From the NCBI GenBank assembly GCA_016278515.1, contig JADQBR010000059.1, positions 1 through 47,811 on the forward strand: DNA of 47,811 nt. Reading direction: 5' to 3'. The notes below the pieces were generated by a model, which was given only the letters and a program-made list of their open reading frames with translations, had not been told where the DNA came from and searched no databases. The position numbers and the translations under genes are program-made. Shown here piece after piece: positions 5,106 through 17,149 of this stretch (positions are counted from its first letter, which is position 1; each line of letters opens with the position of its first letter). This DNA is from Bacillota bacterium (GTDB lineage: Bacteria; Bacillota; JADQBR01).

Positions 5106-6398
5106 TTACTTGGAATTACTATGGGACCAGATTACGACGGGGATAAGCAATAGTGAAAGAATGCCGCCGGCCAGTGAGAGTATTGTATAACTGGAATGAG
5201 CTACGACCATACCAGATAGTGCTCCCCCCGATGCTCCACTTAAAGCAATTAAGACATCAACAGAACCTTGCATCTTAGCGCGAGTGGACGGATTAGTTGC
5301 ATCCACGATGAGCGCTGTGCCGCTAATCAAACCGAAGTTCCAACCAAGCCCAAGCAGAGCGAGGGCGATAGTGAGTACCAGCATAGAGTCAGTAGGTGCT
5401 ACAGCAGCCAGAATACCCGCAGCAAGTAGAGTTGCCCCGGAAGCGATTGTCATTATAGTACGGCCCAACTTGTCAACAAGGATACCGGTAACGAGGGATG
5501 GCAGGTACATTGCACCGATATGGATGCCAATTATCTGTCCTATCTCACTTAAACCATGCCCGTGGTGCTGCATATGTACAGGCGTCATGGTCATAAGTGC
5601 AACCATGACAATTTGGGTTAGAACCATTATTGTGGCTCCAACAACTATTCCTCGTTTGTTTATTGCTAGTGTATTGGAATCCGTATCTGAAAAATGACTC
5701 TCGTTAGTTTTCTGCACATCTGCAATTGCTTTTGCAACGATGAGGGGATCTGGACGAAGTAAAGCTAGTAGCACTAAACCAGCTAGTATGAAGGCTGCTG
5801 CTGCAAGAATGAACGGACCAGCTAGAGCAGGGATTCTGATGGATGTGGCGAATCGTCCCATTACATCAACCAAGTTTGGACCTGCAACAGCGCCGAATGT
5901 AGTTGATACCATAGCGATACTGATTGCTGTTGCTCGCTGTGTAGAATCTGCTAAGTCTGTACCTGCATAGCGTGCTTGTAAGTTTGTAGCGGTGCCGGCA
6001 CCATAAATAAGTAATGAAACAAAAAGAAGTAGGATGTTATTAGTTACTGCTGAGATTACTACTCCCGTCGCGCCAATACCGCCAGCCAAGAAGCCTGTTA
6101 CTAGTCCTAATCGGCGTCCATAACGTTGGGTGAGCCGCCCTACAAGTAGTGCTGCCCCAGCAGAACCCAGAGTAAACAACGCAACTGGAACCCCCGCGAA
6201 ACTATCGGTACCTAGCATGTCCTGAGCAAGAAGTGCCCCGACGGTTACGCCTGCTGCAAGTCCTGCGCCACCGAAAATCTGTGAAATTACAACGATAATC
6301 AAGGTGCGTTTATATAGTCCTCGTTGCTTTTCTGGGGAATCAATGTAACTCTGTAACCAAGCTGGTTGGTTTTCTGAAATGTCAGGTTTATGCGACAT
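5106..6398 (-). CDS. MFS transporter (drug-efflux-like), 430 residues
   Basis: Twelve-helix major facilitator. After a hydrophilic N-terminus (about 27 residues), hydrophobic helices alternate with short loops. The conserved loop between helices 2 and 3 reads GRLTQRYGRRLGL, matching the MFS motif A pattern; the equivalent loop in the second half is GILVDKLGRTIM. A central loop of about 30 residues separates the halves. Substrate cannot be read from sequence; YttB-like exporters of Bacillus look similar. The start follows an AAAGGGCGG site 8 bases upstream. It is transcribed from the minus-strand promoter at 6517-6545 through a leader holding a short reading frame. The gene is visibly more GC-rich than its neighbours, which may indicate transfer. 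Confidence 0.85.
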   Translation of the reverse strand: MSHKPDISENQPAWLQSYIDSPEKQRGLYKRTLIIVVISQIFGGAGLAAGVTVGALLAQDMLGTDSFAGVPVALFTLGSAGAALLVGRLTQRYGRRLGLVTGFLAGGIGATGVVISAVTNNILLLFVSLLIYGAGTATNLQARYAGTDLADSTQRATAISIAMVSTTFGAVAGPNLVDVMGRFATSIRIPALAGPFILAAAAFILAGLVLLALLRPDPLIVAKAIADVQKTNESHFSDTDSNTLAINKRGIVVGATIMVLTQIVMVALMTMTPVHMQHHGHGLSEIGQIIGIHIGAMYLPSLVTGILVDKLGRTIMTIASGATLLAAGILAAVAPTDSMLVLTIALALLGLGWNFGLISGTALIVDATNPSTRAKMQGSVDVLIALSGASGGALSGMVVAHSSYTILSLAGGILSLLLIPVVIWSHSNSK

Positions 6399-6414
6399 AA
6401 CTCAACCGCCCTTT

Positions 6415-6486
6415 CTAAATACTTTTCTCTAGACGAAAAGCAATAAAGCCAATTTTTCTTTCTTGTTCTTGAATAGGGAGAGACAT
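6415..6486 (-). CDS. possible 23-residue leader peptide of the MFS gene
   Basis: Within the 5' untranslated region, an ATG just after AGAGGA starts MSLPIQEQERKIGFIAFRLEKSI, stopping at 6415-6417, next to the ribosome site of the exporter gene (17 bases before its ATG). A small hairpin (cttttc/gaaaag, 6420-6438) lies at the end of the frame. The arrangement resembles translational attenuation of resistance genes. The spacing of AGAGGA to the ATG is short, so translation is not assured. Confidence 0.35.
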   Translation of the reverse strand: MSLPIQEQERKIGFIAFRLEKSI

Positions 6487-6516
6487 TCCTCTAAAGCATG
6501 AGCGTATAACAGCTAA

Positions 6517-6545
6517 ATTATAGTAGTAAAATAGTTTATGGTCAA
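6517..6545 (-). promoter_or_regulatory. promoter of the MFS gene
   Basis: Read on the minus strand: TTGACC, 17 bases, TATAAT. A near-consensus sigma-A promoter about 110 bases upstream of the exporter start codon. Confidence 0.75.
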
Positions 6546-6591
6546 CCTTGTTCTTACACTCAAACCCTTAAAACTTTATAAAAGTTTATAA

Positions 6592-6650
6592 AAACCGCTG
6601 CAGCCGTTAGACTCGCGATGAAGTGTATCAAAATTGACGCGGTTTTTTTA
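6592..6650 (+). terminator. terminator-like hairpin with a long loop
   Basis: aaaccgc (6592-6598) and gcggttt (6639-6645) can pair, followed directly by a T tract, but the loop is about 40 bases. No gene ends just upstream on this strand, so it may be part of a leader before the response regulator rather than an ordinary terminator. Confidence 0.35.
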
Positions 6651-6654
6651 TATA

Positions 6655-6869
6655 GACTTTAATGTTATAAAGTTATCTTCCACTCTTTATCAAACTTCAA
6701 TTCAATTTACATTTGTTTCTTTAAAATGAATCTTAAATGAAATGAGGTTAAACGGGAAAAATATAATATTATATTCGCTACGATGTACAGCATGATAAAA
6801 GAGGTCTTATAAGAGGAACATGTCCTGTTTGCAATAAGAATTTAAAACCGTCTTGAAGGGGGAAATAGA
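6655..6869 (+). other. region upstream of the first two-component system
   Basis: AT-rich; the promoter for the response regulator should be here (tataatatta-like sequence near 6762-6775). On the plus strand a frame without a start codon, ending at about 6855, contains RGTCPVCNKNLKPS, a CxxC zinc-knuckle-like scrap, probably leftover coding DNA. No other feature seen. Confidence 0.3.
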
Positions 6870-7559
6870 ATGAAGCATTTTCTACTCGTCGAGGATGAAC
6901 AGATTTTAGCCAAAAATATTGCTTTTTTTCTAGAACGAGAGGGCTATCAAGTAGATATAGAATATGACGGAGAATCGGGATGGGCATCATACATATCAAA
7001 AGCATATGATCTTATTTTATTAGATTGGACCTTACCAAAGAAAGACGGTTTAGAACTTTGTAAAGAAATACGAAAGGAATCAAATGTTCCCATTATGATG
7101 CTTACTGCTAAAAGTGAAATTTTAGATAAGATAATCGGCTTAGAGTTGGGTGCAGATGATTATATCGTTAAACCGTTTGACCAACGAGAATTACTGGCTA
7201 GAATTCATGCTTTATTAAGAAGAAATGAAACTACGAGTAATAAACAATTTGTGGAGCATTGGCTTCAATATGAGGGACTTAAATTGGACCGCGAAAAGCT
7301 GCTTGTCTTCTTTGGAGAACAATCTGTAGCTCTGACAGCCAATGAGTATAAATTAATGGAAATCTTAATGAAGAAGCCGGATAATGTCTATTCACGTGAA
7401 TTTATATATGAACAGATTTGGGACGGTTTATTAGAGTATAGTGAACGAACAGTCGATGTCACTATCAGTCGCTTACGGAAAAAATTAATGGAGCTATCTG
7501 GTAAGAAATATTTTCATGCAGTAAGAGGGATGGGTTACCGTTTTGGAGGAAAGTCATGA
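6870..7559 (+). CDS. OmpR/PhoB-family response regulator
   Basis: A 229-residue two-domain DNA-binding regulator. The receiver (residues 1-115) has the acidic pair in LLVEDE, the phosphorylated Asp in LILLDWTLPKKDG (about residue 52), the Thr in MMLTAK and the Lys in IVKPFD, all intact. The C-terminal winged helix contains LTANEYKLMEILM, RTVDVTISRLRKKL and the final VRGMGYRF hairpin. A strong GAAGGGGG site precedes the ATG. The kinase gene follows with a 4-base ATGA overlap. The pair and the lipoprotein after it look Bacillus-like; target genes are not evident, but the lipoprotein is the natural candidate. Confidence 0.93.
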   Translation: MKHFLLVEDEQILAKNIAFFLEREGYQVDIEYDGESGWASYISKAYDLILLDWTLPKKDGLELCKEIRKESNVPIMMLTAKSEILDKIIGLELGADDYIVKPFDQRELLARIHALLRRNETTSNKQFVEHWLQYEGLKLDREKLLVFFGEQSVALTANEYKLMEILMKKPDNVYSREFIYEQIWDGLLEYSERTVDVTISRLRKKLMELSGKKYFHAVRGMGYRFGGKS

Positions 7560-8920
7560 AAATCCAATATCAATTGTGGTTGATTTTTTCCGGCTTATTT
7601 ATTGTTGTCAGTCTTACTGTATATATGGTTGTGTCAAACACGTATGAACAACGTTTACAAGCGGGGTATGAGCAAATATCCATCGCTCAAGGCTCTGCCA
7701 TTCTTGACCAATTGGAAGACACATACCCTTATTCACCCAACCGTAGTATCGGTTACCTTCGGACATACAGTGAACAGCTAAACAGCAGATTGATTATGTT
7801 GGACCACGATAAAAAAGTTTACGCAGACAGTTTTCAGCAACTCAAGCCAGACACAACATTAGATCTGGATATATTAGATCAAGATACTGTTCCGGGCTCT
7901 CGCTTTTCCGAAACAGAATTTTTTGCCTATGTTCAATATACCCTACTCCCATTTCAGACGATAGAAAGGGAAGGCTATTTATTAATGGTTCAAGAAGCTG
8001 ACGAACTTTACGCTGAATTAAAATCCTTTCAATATTGGATGGTTCAAACGCTGCTTATCGCGGTTTCGGTTTTCTTTTTTATTTCATATTTTGTTTCGTC
8101 CTGGTTTTCAAAACCAATCCGTCAGATTATTTTTCATTTAAAAAAAATAACGCCGCAAAAACGTACTTTCTCCTTGAAATATCAGCGGCGTGATGAGATT
8201 AAAGAATTAATTGATACCACACAAAAGATGGTTGAAGAGTTAAACCTATATGATGAAAGGCAACGAAGATTTTTGAGCACTTCCTCACATGAATTAAAAA
8301 CTCCTTTGGCAACCATGCAGCTAATCCTTGAGAATCTGCCATATGTACGTGAGGATGAAGAGACATATCGTGAATTTGTACAAGACCTATCGTTCCAGGT
8401 CCAAAAAATGAAACACATGGCTGAACAGTTATTACAAATTAACCGTATATGGGATAGAAACCTCCAAAAAACGACACTGAATGCTCGAGATATACAGAAT
8501 TATCTCCTACGGTCCTTTCAACATATTGCCCAAAACAAACAAATAGTCCTAGAATTTGAAATTGAGCCGGTTAATTTATATGTCGATCGAGCATTGTTTC
8601 TGCGCGGGCTGGATAACCTGGTTTCCAATGCTATTCGCTATTCTCCCCAAGGTCAATCCGTAAACATTACCATTAAAAGTGATAAAGAACAAGATAAGAT
8701 CAGTGTATGTGATCAAGGGATTGGTATTTCACCAGAAAATCTTCCGCATATTTTTGAGCCTTTTTACCGTTCCAATGATGCGACGGCATGGAATCAAGAA
8801 GGCAGTGGTTTAGGCTTAACCATTGTCAAGCAAATGGTTGAAATGCACAACGGGAGGATCGACATTGAAACAGTGCAAAATCAAGGAACATGCATTCATT
8901 TATTTTTACCAAAAGCTTAA
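7556..8920 (+). CDS. membrane sensor histidine kinase, partner of the 6870 regulator
   Basis: A 454-residue HK. Transmembrane helix 1 is about residues 7-27, then an extracytoplasmic domain of about 130 residues with no cysteines, helix 2 at about 162-182 and a HAMP-like linker. The HisKA segment STSSHELKTPLATMQ carries the phospho-accepting His (about residue 246). HATPase_c follows with the N box (NLVSNAIRYSP), G1 (CDQGIGIS), F box (FEPFYRS) and G2 (GSGLGLTIVKQM). Every catalytic box is present, so it should be active. ATGA overlap with the response regulator implies coupled translation. The signal is unknown. Confidence 0.93.
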   Translation: MKIQYQLWLIFSGLFIVVSLTVYMVVSNTYEQRLQAGYEQISIAQGSAILDQLEDTYPYSPNRSIGYLRTYSEQLNSRLIMLDHDKKVYADSFQQLKPDTTLDLDILDQDTVPGSRFSETEFFAYVQYTLLPFQTIEREGYLLMVQEADELYAELKSFQYWMVQTLLIAVSVFFFISYFVSSWFSKPIRQIIFHLKKITPQKRTFSLKYQRRDEIKELIDTTQKMVEELNLYDERQRRFLSTSSHELKTPLATMQLILENLPYVREDEETYREFVQDLSFQVQKMKHMAEQLLQINRIWDRNLQKTTLNARDIQNYLLRSFQHIAQNKQIVLEFEIEPVNLYVDRALFLRGLDNLVSNAIRYSPQGQSVNITIKSDKEQDKISVCDQGIGISPENLPHIFEPFYRSNDATAWNQEGSGLGLTIVKQMVEMHNGRIDIETVQNQGTCIHLFLPKA

Positions 8921-10743: not shown

Positions 10744-11454
10744 ATGCCGTATTTGGGCAAAGTTTTGCTAGTTGATGACGACCAAAACGTACTCGAACTG
10801 GTCAAGCTATATGGTGAAAGGGAAGGTTTAGATGTCATCGGGATCGACGACGGCGAATTGGTACTGCCCGCATTCGATCGGGAAAATCCTGACGTGGTAA
10901 TATTGGATATCATGCTTCCGGGTAAGGACGGGCTTACTCTGTGTCGGAATTTAAGAGAGATTCGCATGGTTCCTATTATTATGCTTACGGCCAAAGGAGA
11001 GGAAGCCGATCGTGTTTTGGGACTGGAAATGGGAGCTGATGACTACGTCTCCAAACCTTTCAGCCCCAGGGAACTGGTTGCCAGAATTAAAGCGCTGCTG
11101 CGGCGTACGCAAAAATTTGATGCGAATACGAATTGGAAGCTGACATATCCGGGATTGGAAATCTCTGCCGACACCAGGAAGGTGTTGGTTGAGGGCGTAG
11201 AAACAGAAGTTACTCCCAGGGAATTCGATTTACTTTATTATCTTGCCCAGAATCCCCGGCGGGTTTTTACCAGGGAAAGTCTGCTGACCGGCGTCTGGGG
11301 ATATGATTACTTCGGTGACCAGCGTACGGTGGATGTTCACATTCGCAGGCTTAGGACAAAGCTGGCGCCGTTGTCTCATGAATACGTAACGACGATTTGG
11401 GGCGTGGGATACCAGTTTACACCTCCTGTCGCGGGGGGAGAGACCCAATCGTGA
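10744..11454 (+). CDS. PhoB/PhoP/ResD-type response regulator
   Basis: A 236-residue OmpR-family regulator. The receiver has the acidic pair in LLVDDDQN, the phospho-acceptor Asp in VVILDIMLPGKDG (about residue 55), Thr in IMLTAKGEEADRVLGLEMGA and Lys in VSKPFSP. The winged helix carries VTPREFDLLYYLA, the recognition segment RTVDVHIRRLRTKL and the terminal WGVGYQF. GGAGGGGG precedes the ATG. It lies downstream of one of four near-identical promoters and is the best candidate for the activator that binds their TAACA repeats, since OmpR-family proteins bind tandem half-sites about 10-11 bp apart. The kinase gene follows 25 bases later. Confidence 0.93.
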   Translation: MPYLGKVLLVDDDQNVLELVKLYGEREGLDVIGIDDGELVLPAFDRENPDVVILDIMLPGKDGLTLCRNLREIRMVPIIMLTAKGEEADRVLGLEMGADDYVSKPFSPRELVARIKALLRRTQKFDANTNWKLTYPGLEISADTRKVLVEGVETEVTPREFDLLYYLAQNPRRVFTRESLLTGVWGYDYFGDQRTVDVHIRRLRTKLAPLSHEYVTTIWGVGYQFTPPVAGGETQS

Positions 11455-11479
11455 ACACCTATTTACGGGAGTGGAGGGC

Positions 11480-13029
11480 ATGAATAAGTTTCAAAGGATA
11501 ATCAGCGTCGCGCGCGGCTACTGGCATATTGTAAATCGCTTGCTACGGGAGCAATTAAATAAAAATATTTATACCAGGATTCTTTTTACCAATGTGATAG
11601 CATTTGTTTCGTTCTGGTTGGCCTGATTATATTTACCAGTTTTGCAATGAGGCAAGCAACTAATGATCAGGCTCAAAAGGATTTATTGCGCAAGGCCAAG
11701 AGGGTAAACTATGCATTGCTTCAGCAAACAGATGGGGAGTTATGGTACCCAATTTCGGATCAAAAAAGTGATCAAGCTCAAGACAGACAGGATTTGCTAA
11801 AATTTCTGGCTGATGTTTTTGATGCCAGGATTACGGTTTTTGATAAGGAAGCAATCATCGTTGGCACTTCGGCGGAGCAAGAAGTGGTGCCCGGTGATAA
11901 GGTGGAAACGGAAAAATATGTCGAGTTGATTATCAACGGCGAAACTGTTGCTGACAGGGCGTTAGATGGGGAAACAGGTCAGCTTGCCTTTATCGCTGCT
12001 GTTCCCATGGGGAACAACAAAGATGCCATTGAAAATGGTATTTTACTGGAAGCGAAGCGATCCAGTTTCGATCTAACTTTTAATATACTGCGATCGTACC
12101 TGGCAATCGGGGGAATGATTATGTTTGTGATTATTATTATTATTTCCATCTACCTAGCCATGTATATTTCCAGGTCAATTTCCCGTCTAACCACTACCGT
12201 GGCCGATATTAACAGCGGGAACTACTCTATCATGAGCATGGATGAGCATCCACTGGATGAAATCAAAGGTCTGAGCGGTCAACTCAATAAATTAGGGGTG
12301 AAACAGCAGAAAATACAGGAAGAAAGCCAGAAGGTGGAAGAAGAAAGAGTTCGGCTATTTGCGGAAATATCACATGAGTTACGCACTCCTTTGACCGCTG
12401 TTCAGGGCTTCGTTGAGGCTATCCGTGACGGCGTAGTACAGGACGAAGCTTTACAGGATAGGTATTTGGAGACGATTCACACTCAAACGATTCATATCAC
12501 TAGGCTGGTAGATGATATCTTGGCATTAAGCCGCCTGGAAAGCGGAAATATCACCGTGGAAAAACGGCCCGTGGACTTGATTGCTCTCTCACAAGGTGTA
12601 GTTATGTCCATGGAGGGTCTGGCAAAGGGTAAGAATACTTCGATCCTGTTTGAGAAAAAAACAGAGAATGCAACCCTGATTGGGGACGTTGACCGTATGG
12701 AACAGATTATTAGGAATCTGCTGAAAAATGCCATCAGGGCGACAGATAACGGTGCCATCAGGGTTGGTGTGGAGAGTCGCCATGGTAAAGTGGTACTAAC
12801 CATTGAGGATAATGGCGTCGGCATATCCCCCGACGATTTGCCGCATATTTGGGATCGGTTTTACCGGGTGAAAAACCAGCGTGGTAGTAACCTGCAGGAA
12901 AAAGGGACTGGTTTAGGTCTGGTGATTGTGAAAAAGCTGGTTCAATTGCAGGACGGTAAGGTCGATGTTACAAGTGAGTTAGGGAAGGGAACCGTTTTTC
13001 GCATCAGTTTTCCAGCTTTTGCCCAGTAA
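11480..13029 (+). CDS. sensor histidine kinase, apparent frameshift in helix 1
   Basis: Partner of the 10744 regulator. The natural start (ATG 11480, GGGAG 8 bases upstream) gives MNKFQRIISVARGYWHIVNR and the beginning of a membrane helix (LFTNVIAFVSFW), then hits TGA at about 11624. The rest of the helix (VLVGLIIFTSFAMRQ) continues in the next frame, which stays open to 13029 (ATG at 11647). One missing base near 11612-11623 explains it. The remainder is complete: an extracytoplasmic domain of about 135 residues, helix 2 (MIMFVIIIIISIYLAMYI), HAMP, HisKA (FAEISHELRTPLTA, His accepts phosphate), N box (NLLKNAIRA), G1 (DNGVGIS) and G2 (GTGLGLVIVKKL). It is either a sequencing error, a recent mutation or a product that starts internally. 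Confidence 0.85.
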
Positions 13030-13096
13030 TAGAAATTGCCCGACTAAAAAGCCGGGAGCCATATTTTCTTATAAAAGCAAACTCATTTTCACTGTT

Positions 13097-13136
13097 AACA
13101 GCTACCGGCTATTATTGGGCCGGTAGCTGTTATTTT
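13097..13136 (+). terminator. terminator of the second two-component operon
   Basis: Perfect 13-bp arms aacagctaccggc (13097-13109) and its complement (13119-13131) with a 9-base loop, followed by attttat. It separates the kinase from the PGA operon. Confidence 0.85.
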
Positions 13137-13391: not shown

Positions 13392-14564
13392 CTGCAGTTT
13401 GCTATATTACTTATTATTTTTGTGTTAGTGTTAGGTGTTTATGAACAAATAAAACATAATAAAAACTTAAATTCTATCAGTTGTAGAATTAACGTAAACG
13501 GTACCAGAGGTAAATCAACTGTAACGCGACTAATTACAGGTATCTTAATGGAAGCAGGGGTTAAGGTTGTTGGGAAAACTACGGGAACCAGCGCGAGAAT
13601 TATGTATTGGAATAAAGAAGAAGAACCAATCAAACGAGGCCGGCTAGGTCCAAATATTATTGAACAAAAAACTGTCATTAATAAGGTTGCTAAGCTTGAC
13701 CCAGCGGCATTTGTAACAGAGTGTATGGCGGTAAATCCTGATTACCAAATTACTTTTCAGGAGAAGCTTGTAAAAGCAAATATGGGAGTTATTGTTAATG
13801 TTCGTGAAGATCATATGGATGTCTGTGGGCCGACATTAGACTTTATTGCAGAGTCCTTTACGGCCACAATTCCAAGAAACGGAACTCTTATTGTTAGTGA
13901 TAGTAAATATAATGATTATTTTACTCAAGAAGCAAAGAAAAAAAACTGCCAGATACTTATTGCGGATGATACAGAAATCCCCGATGGTTATCTTGAAAAA
14001 TTTAGATTTATAGTGTTTCCAGAAAATGTTGCTATTGCACTGGCTGCTGCTAGAGCATTAAACATTGACAAAGATACTGCGTTGAGGGGAATGCTAAACG
14101 CTAATCCTGATCCGGGAGCCTTAATGATACATCCATTAGATAACAACCGAACATATTTTGTCAATAGCTTTGCTGCCAATGACCCAAATTCAACACTAAT
14201 GATTTGGGATCACATAACAACCATTGGTTATCCAACAGAAAACCGTATGGTAATTGTAAATTGCAGGCCTGATAGAATTGACAGAACATTACAGTTTGCA
14301 GAAGAGGTCTTGCCAAATATGAATATTGATATTCTCGTTGCAATGGGTGAGAAAGTTAAGCCAATTACTGAAGGAGTCAATACTAACAAAATATCTCCGA
14401 GGAGATATATAAATGCTGAAGGTTTATCACCACATGAGGTTCATAAAAAAATTAAGAATGACTGTATAAACAGAGTAATTTTTGGTGTTGGCAACATTCA
14501 CGGCGGGGGGGAGGAATTGGTTGAACTATTAATTCACGAAAAATTGTATCTAGAAACGGCTTAA
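13392..14564 (+). CDS. pgsB: poly-gamma-glutamate synthase, ATP-dependent ligase subunit
   Basis: PgsB/CapB joins glutamates through gamma-amide bonds using ATP, at the membrane with PgsC. The P-loop is NGTRGKST (about residue 31), followed by VTRLITGILMEAG as in all PgsB proteins; KTTGTSARIMYW, AAFVTECMAV, NVREDHMDVCG and the HGGGEELVE end also match a Mur-ligase-like enzyme. The annotated frame from GTG 13422 would lose the N-terminal membrane anchor that PgsB needs. The frame continues upstream (LQFAILLIIFVLVLGVYEQ) to a CTG at 13392, 6 bases after GAGGAGAGG, so I favour this non-standard start, giving 390 residues. First main gene of the operon under promoter copy B. Confidence 0.92.
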   Translation: MQFAILLIIFVLVLGVYEQIKHNKNLNSISCRINVNGTRGKSTVTRLITGILMEAGVKVVGKTTGTSARIMYWNKEEEPIKRGRLGPNIIEQKTVINKVAKLDPAAFVTECMAVNPDYQITFQEKLVKANMGVIVNVREDHMDVCGPTLDFIAESFTATIPRNGTLIVSDSKYNDYFTQEAKKKNCQILIADDTEIPDGYLEKFRFIVFPENVAIALAAARALNIDKDTALRGMLNANPDPGALMIHPLDNNRTYFVNSFAANDPNSTLMIWDHITTIGYPTENRMVIVNCRPDRIDRTLQFAEEVLPNMNIDILVAMGEKVKPITEGVNTNKISPRRYINAEGLSPHEVHKKIKNDCINRVIFGVGNIHGGGEELVELLIHEKLYLETA

Positions 14565-14640
14565 GTGCCACAGTTGCTTTCTAAATCTTAAATTTGAAAT
14601 AAAAAGATTTCAGTAAATAATATTAAAGGAGCTAACAAGG

Positions 14641-15093
14641 TTGGTACTTACGGATATTAATACAGTTATTATTTTGGGTGTAATTCTCAGCTTGTTATTT
14701 ACAGAACTTACAGGATTTTTACCTGCTGGTCTAGTTGTACCTGGATATTTAGTTTTACTTATAAATCTGCCCCAAGCTATATTTCTAACATTCTTAATTA
14801 GCCTGTTGACTTATATAATAGTTCAGTTTGGTGTGGGTAAAGTTACAATTCTATACGGCAAAAGAAAATTTGCAGCCATGATAACAGTAGGAATAGTGTT
14901 ACAGTTTGTATTGCGTGCAATATTACCACTTGATTATGGAAATGTCTCTGAGTTGGCGGCAGTTGGTATTATTGTACCAGGATTATTAGCAAACACAATT
15001 CAGCGTCAAGGTTTAGCAACAACATTTTTCAGCACCGGATTGTTGACTGCAGTGACATATGGAAGCGCACTACTGTTACATGTCAAAATATAA
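14641..15093 (+). CDS. pgsC: poly-gamma-glutamate biosynthesis membrane protein
   Basis: PgsC/CapC is the small membrane subunit that forms the PGA synthase with PgsB. This 150-residue protein has about five hydrophobic helices and the family sequences SLLFTELTGFLPAGLVVPGY near the N-terminus and ILYGKRKFAAM in the middle, as in Bacillus PgsC (149 residues). TTG start, AAGGAG 9 bases upstream. Follows pgsB by 76 bases; no pgsA/capA follows. Confidence 0.93.
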   Translation: MVLTDINTVIILGVILSLLFTELTGFLPAGLVVPGYLVLLINLPQAIFLTFLISLLTYIIVQFGVGKVTILYGKRKFAAMITVGIVLQFVLRAILPLDYGNVSELAAVGIIVPGLLANTIQRQGLATTFFSTGLLTAVTYGSALLLHVKI

Positions 15094-15108
15094 GAAAGGA
15101 GGTGTAAA

Positions 15109-15342
15109 ATGAAAGCTTTTTACGGGCTAATACAAAACATACACTACAGGAACACATCGGGTGCTATCCTAAAAGACAGTCAGAATGAAGTTCTTGCGGG
15201 TTTTAATGTATTAACTTTCAAAGAAAAGTGCCTGTATCTTATTAAGATCAGCAAGAGAAATACAAGCTATCAAGCACTTGTGTTAATGGGATTAACTCTA
15301 ATGATTATTGCTATGGATTATCTGGTTTCTTTGGCTATTTAA
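15109..15342 (+). CDS. small membrane protein in the PGA operon, 77 residues
   Basis: Fifteen bases after pgsC, with the strong site AAAGGAGGTG before the ATG. The first 50 residues are soluble and basic (LTFKEKCLYLIKISKRNTSY) and residues about 54-76 form one membrane helix (ALVLMGLTLMIIAMDYLVSL). I do not recognise the family. Its place and size recall PgsE/CapE, the short fourth subunit of Bacillus PGA synthases, but there is no sequence match I can point to. Likely a synthase accessory subunit. Confidence 0.7.
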   Translation: MKAFYGLIQNIHYRNTSGAILKDSQNEVLAGFNVLTFKEKCLYLIKISKRNTSYQALVLMGLTLMIIAMDYLVSLAI

Positions 15343-15360
15343 GAAGGGGGTAAAATAAGT

Positions 15361-16206
15361 ATGAAAAAAGAATTTATTAAAATTCTAGCTTTTGTTCTAT
15401 TATTTACATTTGGTGGTGCTTTAAGCGTATATGCATTCACAACAGGTTCAGGTTATAGTAGTTTTAATGAACTATTTGCATCCGAAGACGCTGCAGATTA
15501 TACAATTAAAACTACTGATATCGGAAGTGATACAACAATTTTAGCTTTACACGGAGGCGGTATTGAAAGAGGTACTTCAGAATTAGTTGAAGCATTGAAT
15601 GGGTACGGTAAATATAACACTTATTTATTTGAAGGACGAAAAACAACAGATAATCAAAGTCTGTTTTTAAGGGCTATCAAATTTGATGAACCTAAAGCTG
15701 TGAGTTTAGTTAAAGATTCTGATTACACTGTTTCTGTTATTGGCGCGGCAGGTGATGATGAAGTCACATATATTGGCGGCCAAAATAAGCTGCTGGCAGA
15801 ATTGCTCAAATTACATCTTATTAACAAAGGATATCGTGTCCAAACTCTAAGCCTTCCCGATCGCATTGCCGGGGTTATGGACAGTAATATAGTCAATAAG
15901 AATAAAGAATTCAGCGGAGGTTATCAGCTGGGCGGTGTTCAGATAGCTGTTTCAAAGGGTTTGAGAGATAAGTTTGTAGCTGATCCTAATGTCTTAAATG
16001 ATTATGCAGATTCTATCAATGCAGCACTAACCAAAAGCTGGCCTGTAGCAGCTTCCGCCTTGGAGAACAAGCATGATAAAAATGTAGAAAAGTTTTTTGA
16101 AAAGTTATTTAGTAAGCATAATTTTAACAAAAAAGTAGACAAAATAATCAAGAAGGGTGCAAATACGCCCAAGGGATTACTGAAAAACATTGAAGCTACC
16201 GATTAA
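15361..16206 (+). CDS. secreted PGA-hydrolase-family protein, catalytic residues lost
   Basis: Belongs to the poly-gamma-glutamate hydrolase family (DUF867; phage PghP, YmaC/YjqB relatives), zinc peptidases related to carboxypeptidases. A signal or anchor helix (residues 7-26) places it outside the membrane. Residue 64 His and 69 Glu in LALHGGGIERGTSE keep the first zinc motif. Compared with the intact paralogue at 16380, three conserved positions changed: Phe102 for His, Ile127 for His (SVIGAAG instead of SIHGASG) and Ala196 for Glu (QIAVS instead of QLEIS). A lysine-rich tail of about 55 residues follows the domain and is absent from the paralogue. Last gene of the PGA operon, where pgsA usually lies. 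I infer a polymer-binding or export role rather than hydrolysis. Confidence 0.82.
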   Translation: MKKEFIKILAFVLLFTFGGALSVYAFTTGSGYSSFNELFASEDAADYTIKTTDIGSDTTILALHGGGIERGTSELVEALNGYGKYNTYLFEGRKTTDNQSLFLRAIKFDEPKAVSLVKDSDYTVSVIGAAGDDEVTYIGGQNKLLAELLKLHLINKGYRVQTLSLPDRIAGVMDSNIVNKNKEFSGGYQLGGVQIAVSKGLRDKFVADPNVLNDYADSINAALTKSWPVAASALENKHDKNVEKFFEKLFSKHNFNKKVDKIIKKGANTPKGLLKNIEATD

Positions 16207-16228: not shown

Positions 16229-16288
16229 CATAAACGATGTAAACCTTCCCAAGTATAATCAATCGATGGGAGGTTTACATCGTTTATG
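16229..16288. repeat. 18-bp perfect inverted repeat between convergent genes
   Basis: cataaacgatgtaaacct (16229-16246) and its exact complement (16271-16288), loop 24 bases, with further pairing (tccc/ggga) inside. No T tract on either strand. It may still end transcription of the PGA operon, or be a remnant of a small mobile element. Confidence 0.85.
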
Positions 16289-16379: not shown

Positions 16380-17060
16380 CTATTGAGTACTGTTGACTGC
16401 TTCACTGATTGCGAGAACATATCTTTCCAAACTATCGTCGTCACTCGATAAAAACTGTGTCCTTAAGCCCGCTGATATTTCTAACTGTACTCCCATTCCG
16501 TTCATATTCTTATTAGCTATGTTGTCTGGCGATACCCCAGCCAGATTTTTTGGAGCATCTAACACGGTAAAACCATAGTTAGTCAGAGCTTCTTTTATTC
16601 TCTTTCCTAATGCAGTGTCCAGGCCTCCGATATAGGTGAATTCTTCTGAACCGGAAGCCCCGTGGATTGACAAAGTTGTTTCAGATTCCGAAACCATTTC
16701 CAATGCAGTTGGTTCATCGAATTTGTTTGAAGTAGTATGCAATTTTAAATTACCTTTGCTTTTTAAACCTAGGAATGAATAGTAGTTGTAATTATTATGG
16801 GAAGATAAGGCATAAGCTAATTCAGTAGTCCCTTTTTCAATTTTTCCTCCATGAATTGCAGTAACTATAACATGAGAATCTGTCACGTTAGTTTCAATTT
16901 TATAGTCGATATTTTTTACTTCATTTGAATTTAATTCTACGAAATTGTTATAAATGTCACCAGTAGCTGCAGCAGATGACGGACTAAACATAAAAACTGT
17001 CAGGCAGCAAAAACCAATAATGCGTTTAAAACTTAAAGAACTAAATTTCTTTATAATCAT
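16380..17060 (-). CDS. secreted poly-gamma-glutamate hydrolase (PghP/DUF867 family)
   Basis: A 226-residue zinc-dependent PGA hydrolase that should cut gamma-glutamyl bonds outside the cell. Signal peptide about residues 1-32 (FCCLTVFMFSPSSAAA). The family motifs are complete: AIHGGKIEKGTTE (His70, Glu75), LHTTSNKFDEP (His108), LSIHGASGSEEFTYIGG (His133) and GVQLEISAGLR (Glu194). It is monocistronic and convergent with the PGA operon, so it probably trims or recycles the polymer made next door. The ATG at 17060 has only a weak site (GTGAG); a TTG at 17069 is also in frame. No copy of the shared promoter was found on its side. Confidence 0.87.
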   Translation of the reverse strand: MIIKKFSSLSFKRIIGFCCLTVFMFSPSSAAATGDIYNNFVELNSNEVKNIDYKIETNVTDSHVIVTAIHGGKIEKGTTELAYALSSHNNYNYYSFLGLKSKGNLKLHTTSNKFDEPTALEMVSESETTLSIHGASGSEEFTYIGGLDTALGKRIKEALTNYGFTVLDAPKNLAGVSPDNIANKNMNGMGVQLEISAGLRTQFLSSDDDSLERYVLAISEAVNSTQ

Positions 17061-17149
17061 AATTAACAACTCACTTTTTGATAAACGTTAAAATTTTTAT
17101 TTAGCTTCCTCGCAGACGCTATAAAATTGTTTTTCCACCGCAGATTGAC

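Follow-up and report, generated by a model that had tools for sequence, protein, structure and literature searches.

The closest described systems for the locus reported here are a synthase and a hydrolase of poly-γ-glutamic acid (PGA). The first is the PgsBCA (CapBCA) system of Bacilli. The role of its third component, PgsA/CapA, is disputed, and the protein has been described as essential, as dispensable, as part of a transporter, and as a factor that sets the D/L ratio (PMC6029982, PMC5751247). In Bacillus subtilis, PgsA is dispensable for PGA production but alters the yield and the D/L ratio; PgsBC without PgsA was reported to give abundant L-rich PGA and PgsBCA to give D-rich PGA (Sawada et al., PMC6029982). 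The second is the PF05908 family of PGA hydrolases, represented by PghP and PghL (YndL; PDB 3a9l, 5onj). The zinc ligands of PghL are His41, His102, and Glu46, and alanine mutants of PghP at the equivalents of His41, Glu46, His77, His102, and Glu165 were reported to be damaging (PMC6506827). Arg171 clamps a PGA carboxylate, the R171S mutation abolishes cleavage, and the ligand in the solved PghL complex is an all-L hexapeptide (PMC6506827). Here, we describe a locus on contig JADQBR010000059.1 of a Bacillota bacterium (assembly GCA_016278515.1), analysed over positions 1-47,811 (the window), in which a PGA synthase operon ends with a PF05908 protein lacking key catalytic residues. This protein is called the dead hydrolase below, and the four-gene set is called the cassette.

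The cassette occupies positions 13392-16206 of the forward strand, in the order pgsB, pgsC, small membrane protein, and PF05908 protein. The product of pgsB scores 525 bits against TIGR04012 (E 6e-158; cut-off 222.7), and that of pgsC is likewise above the cut-off of TIGR04011 (E 4.5e-40). The intergenic gaps measure only 76, 15, and 18 bp, so co-transcription of the four genes is likely. As in PgsBCA, the ligase and membrane subunits are genuine PgsB and PgsC family members and a PgsA anchor module accompanies them. Several orthologous loci also have a PgdS-like NlpC/P60 gene nearby, as does locus L027 of genome G138. Unlike PgsBCA, the window type has no CapA (PF09587) ectodomain, its anchor is a gene of its own, a dead PF05908 protein stands in the CapA position, and an active PF05908 gene and a two-component system are usually alongside. 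An earlier reading of the same DNA, based on sequence only, had named these four genes at this site, and the family matches agree with it. Its further statement that no pgsA/capA is seen stands in part: a CapA/PgsA domain was looked for in the operon and none is present, whereas the anchor module of PgsA persists as the 77-residue small protein.

This small protein has no family match above any cut-off. It consists of a cytoplasmic LTFKEKCLYLIKISKRNTSYQ segment followed by one C-terminal membrane helix, and its conserved part, LTLKEKCLYLIKISKRNTSYQ plus the helix, is similar to the N-terminus of true PgsA proteins, for example KLSFQEKLLKITKNQKKKTNKH plus helix. The N-terminal 50 residues of 19 PgsA proteins that carry a CapA domain, all from loci other than the dead-hydrolase ones, were made into a hidden Markov model (HMM), which was searched with hmmsearch against 7,578 open reading frames (ORFs) of at least 35 residues from the sequences analysed. 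Its matches were the PgsA proteins, all 13 small proteins that accompany dead hydrolases, and four small proteins encoded in Bacilli loci; no unrelated ORF among the 7,578 appeared at E ≤ 0.2. The window protein matched at E 5.7e-6, and only 1 in 26,000 shuffled small proteins scored above the weakest true match. Profile-profile comparison with hhalign gave a probability of 95.6% (E 1.1e-8), and a reverse search and training of the profile on Bacilli alone had the same outcome. These comparisons indicate homology between the small protein and the membrane segment at the N-terminus of true PgsA. What the cassette lacks is thus the CapA ectodomain, not PgsA as a whole. The shortest anchors, of about 41-44 residues, are those of two distant members of the group and of genome G845, which places the additional N-terminus of the window protein outside the core.

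The fourth protein can be aligned with PghL over its active site. At the positions of His41, Glu46, His77, His102, and Glu165 it has His, Glu, Phe, Ile, and Ala. The replacements Phe102, Ile127, and Ala196 named by the sequence-only reading are therefore exact, as is the persistence of the first zinc motif, HGGGIE, with H64 and E69. The intact paralogue downstream has all of these residues. Across 13 aligned orthologues, His102 is always Ile or Val and Glu165 is always Ala. His77 is Phe in 11; the two distant members have it still, together with Thr79 and Ser80. Three orthologues have lost Glu46, namely the distant members (Ser, Ala) and the G351 protein (Gln). Residues His41, Asn73, Asn151, and Arg171 are retained in all 13, including the window protein; the last three anchor PGA in PghL. 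The shared core of the loss is one zinc ligand and the catalytic glutamate, and the remainder is branch-specific; a constant core with a variable rest is as expected for selection on something other than catalysis. In intact homologues the catalytic set is complete in 19/19 cellular and 50/50 viral proteins, although the viral scan was seeded on the HGGxIE and LHxTS motifs and within the viral set only His102, Glu165, Asn151, and Arg171 are unbiased tests. The losses are thus specific to the dead form, as had been claimed. Judged by its residues, the protein retains the Arg171 hallmark of a PGA hydrolase and lacks a complete zinc site, Glu165, and His77; without the zinc ligand and catalytic glutamate it is not expected to cut PGA.

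The dead hydrolase is nevertheless maintained. Its dN/dS (ratio of nonsynonymous to synonymous substitution rates), for the pairs computed, is approximately 0.22-0.42, compared with 0.16-0.31 for the active paralogue, and the mean identities are 73% and 72%, respectively; purifying selection thus acts on it about as strongly as on the active enzyme. The dead clade is monophyletic (support 100/99). An AlphaFold2 model of the window protein (47-sequence alignment) has a mean predicted confidence (pLDDT) of 88.9, and its best Foldseek match is the PghL-PGA complex 5onj, with a TM-score of 0.87 by target, E 1.1e-18, a root mean square deviation of 2.4, and 32% identity. The model indicates that the PF05908 fold is retained, with an added C-terminal extension that is helical. 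All 13 dead proteins carry a hydrophobic N-terminal leader, usually with a YA|-type signal-peptidase site at its end, and are apparently secreted and cleaved from the membrane. Neither this protein nor the small protein of the window has an NCBIfam match, TIGR04332 included. The lysine-rich tail noted earlier is present in the window protein, with a net charge of approximately +5. It is not a conserved polycation, since orthologue tails range from -7 to +10, and it therefore provides no general hook for a polyanion.

The arrangement recurs in relatives, with no linked pgsA and with the same residues lost, a recurrence that the sequence-only reading had named as supporting evidence. Systematic searches covered Bacillota and yielded 14 near-complete orthologues of the dead hydrolase. 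When about 85,000 species genomes were scanned with the window protein, eight loci aligned with almost all of it at 63-73% identity, in a set that includes Geosporobacter, Anaerosolibacter, Alkaliphilus, Sedimentibacter, Schnuerera, Dethiobacter, and Candidatus Formimonas; G351, the two distant members (G426 and G375), G845, and G1015 came from further genome searches. Every locus except L009 has the genes for PgsB, PgsC, the small protein, and the dead hydrolase in this order; L009, from a metagenome-assembled genome, has no pgsC and carries a transposase-like ORF in pgsB (6096-7690), with the anchor and dead hydrolase still open. In most loci the dead gene is followed by an intact PF05908 gene that converges on it. 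The cassette is sparse and scattered among anaerobic Bacillota. Among 397 genomes sampled across the phylum, two (G305 and G845) have it and there is one broken copy; it occurs in 6/198 genomes of the order of Geosporobacter and in 2/43 of the class of Formimonas. Among 72,556 plasmids and 50,697 phage records, relatives of the dead form all lie below 60% identity and none matches over 80% of the query, and a mobile or phage origin was rejected on these searches.

Some copies have been rearranged. In the broken cassette L050 (genome G202, 6989-7860), the first ~150 residues of pgsB abut the last 141 residues of the dead hydrolase, which points to a deletion running from within pgsB through pgsC and the anchor to about halfway along the dead gene; G202 has no PF09587 match at all. 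Small tandem duplications surround the anchor gene in L110 (7860-8285) and L014 (7344-7574). Both carry partial second anchor copies, and L110 also repeats the start of the dead gene.

The dead hydrolase and the CapA domain do not occur together in the loci examined. No dead-hydrolase locus contains a CapA-domain ORF, and no CapA-bearing pgs locus contains a dead hydrolase. In a PgsB tree with a long outgroup branch, PgsB proteins of dead-hydrolase loci form one clade (100/99), whose sister group is the PgsB of pgsBCA loci (98/91). The two-branch split within the dead-hydrolase clade matches that of the dead protein. Two other CapA-less types were encountered, the first of them already known. 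Most PgsB-family loci sampled across the phylum are of the pgsB-pgsC-TIGR04332 type (L031-L048), which resembles the cassette in lacking a CapA domain and in having a different protein as its third gene, although TIGR04332 is unrelated to PF05908, the PgsB proteins fall in a separate clade, and no anchor-module match occurs; we found no paper on the function of the TIGR04332 protein in the open-access literature. In Bacilli loci L153-L156, pgsC is followed by a stand-alone anchor, as in the cassette, but the next gene encodes a γ-glutamyltranspeptidase-like (CapD-like) protein, with neither a CapA domain nor a dead hydrolase. The PgsB proteins of these four loci, with L156 contributing two from neighbouring pgsB genes, are one clade nested inside the pgsBCA clade, so they apparently represent a separate event of PgsA ectodomain loss. 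Together, the two types show that an outer CapA domain is not universal.

Our favoured explanation, to which we assign a probability of roughly 0.58, is a PgsBC-type synthase whose third component comes in two pieces, a PgsA anchor and a non-cutting, PGA-binding outer protein. PgsB and PgsC, to which the small anchor would be docked, would build and export the chain. Outside the membrane, the dead hydrolase would use its former substrate groove to grip the chain as it emerges, via Arg202, Asn98, and Asn176, and, being unable to cut, would guide, retain, or shield it. The retained groove residues suggest PGA binding, and the gene order and phylogeny suggest a partnership with PgsBC; contact with the anchor and functional equivalence to the CapA ectodomain are proposed as well. 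The sequence-only reading had likewise proposed that the dead hydrolase does the job of PgsA. We infer this too, with reserve because the role of PgsA is unsettled and unlinked CapA-family proteins are present in most of the genomes. We found no inactive PGA hydrolase or split PgsA in the open-access literature.

A more general view, for which we see about even odds, is that PgsA is modular. Its anchor would belong to PgsBC and its outer domain would be exchangeable, taking the form of a CapA domain or a dead PGA hydrolase, or being absent where a CapD-like enzyme occurs; a recruited PGA hydrolase would have lost catalysis and become a chain-handling subunit. An anchor that is kept while the outer domain is swapped for an inactivated hydrolase amounts to a natural experiment on which part of PgsA the synthase needs, and the exchange suggests that the outer domain of PgsA handles the chain. 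The dead hydrolase is a candidate non-cutting PGA-binding protein, and the cassette is a small, testable system in which a degrading enzyme may have turned into a biosynthetic subunit. By analogy with B. subtilis PgsBC, it can be speculated that organisms with the cassette make L-rich PGA.

Several observations weigh against the two-piece synthase. The changes of His77, Thr79, and Ser80 to Phe, Lys/Arg, and Ala in 11 of the 13 orthologues mean that the groove may not fit PGA as before. Loci L153-L156, with neither a CapA domain nor a dead hydrolase, suggest that the ectodomain may be dispensable. In addition, unlinked CapA-family proteins in most cassette genomes could act in trans.

Among the alternatives, the one that survives best, although we consider it unlikely, is that the dead hydrolase is no synthase subunit and acts at the cell surface, where it would bind PGA and retain or protect capsule already made, for instance by hiding it from the active hydrolase. 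Its apparent release from the membrane, its retained PGA-anchoring residues, and the active hydrolase adjoining it in most loci are all consistent with such a role. However, the dead gene stands strictly behind the anchor gene and only in loci without a CapA domain, its clade splits in two as PgsB does, and in L016 and L109 no active paralogue was seen next to the dead gene.

It is less probable again that an unlinked CapA-family protein supplies PgsA function in trans and that the dead hydrolase is a minor accessory. The proposal draws on PF09587 proteins found elsewhere in 11 of 12 genomes examined, eight of which have an intact cassette, and on the single PF09587 protein of the window genome. 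The latter, however, is encoded on another contig (C136) among the housekeeping genes polA, dinB, and coaE, and the PgsA anchor module occurs in none of 17 unlinked copies examined. Moreover, two relatives of the same family, whose pgsB matches are only far below the family cut-off, also have PF09587 proteins, which are therefore not tied to PGA.

We give slightly less credit still to the idea that the dead hydrolase remains an enzyme with changed chemistry, working through another metal site or transferring PGA to the wall. In its favour, the protein is strongly conserved, most of the loop HGGGIERG with it, and related fold families contain diverse hydrolases; the replacement of Glu46 by Ser, Ala, or Gln in three orthologues and the uneven fate of His77, lost in 11 and kept in two, speak against it and leave His41 as the sole constant catalytic residue. 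A surviving alternative metal site was rejected because Glu46 varies. A decaying hydrolase or a sequencing artefact is scarcely credible and is refuted for the family as a whole, despite the broken cassette in L050 and an orthologue in L252 with stops in its C-terminal tail, because the same residues are lost in 13/13 orthologues over several Bacillota lineages (nine of the 13 being the window protein itself or 63-73% identical to it) and dN/dS is well below 1.

Table. Coordinates of features in the window and of stand-alone anchors in related Bacilli loci.
Feature	Sequence	Position	Strand	Basis or remark
Two-component system upstream of pgsB	window	10744..13029	+	orthologous pair also beside 10/14 dead-hydrolase loci compared
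pgsB, amide ligase of PGA synthase	window	13392..14564	+	TIGR04012 equivalog
pgsC, membrane subunit	window	14641..15093	+	TIGR04011 and PF14102
Stand-alone PgsA N-terminal (anchor) module, 77 residues (predicted)	window	15109..15342	+	HMM, hhalign
Secreted, catalytically dead PF05908 protein, 281 residues (predicted)	window	15361..16206	+	PF05908, E 1.5e-44
Codon of Phe102 = PghL His77 (substrate and catalysis)	window	15664..15666	+	
Codon of Ile127 = PghL His102 (zinc ligand)	window	15739..15741	+	Ile/Val in 13/13 aligned orthologues
Codon of Ala196 = PghL Glu165 (carboxypeptidase A Glu270 equivalent)	window	15946..15948	+	Ala in 13/13
Codon of Arg202 = PghL Arg171 (PGA carboxylate anchor)	window	15964..15966	+	Arg in 13/13
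21-nt inverted repeat, 18-nt loop, between convergent dead and intact PF05908 genes	window	16229..16288	.	
Intact PGA hydrolase paralogue	window	16380..17069	-	PF05908; every catalytic residue present
Stand-alone PgsA anchor (40-56 residues in the four loci)	L153	4329-4451	-	
Stand-alone PgsA anchor	L154	2168-2338		
Stand-alone PgsA anchor	L155	2168-2338		
Stand-alone PgsA anchor	L156	2168-2332		

The flanks of the operon show several further features. The start of pgsB in the window is a non-standard CTG (13392-13394) with a good Shine-Dalgarno sequence upstream, and the first GTG lies at 13422. Orthologous pgsB genes that were checked have TTG where the window has CTG, and the start at 13392 was deduced from this and the Shine-Dalgarno sequence. 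The inverted repeat downstream of the dead gene is a possible bidirectional terminator. Upstream, a terminator-like hairpin at 13096-13132 divides the two-component system from pgsB. The histidine kinase gene of this system has an apparent frameshift near its N-terminus (11471-11647), where a 51-residue ORF beginning at 11471 stops at a point at which orthologues go on and the remainder is open from 11647. This frameshift may disrupt a predicted membrane segment or may be an assembly error.

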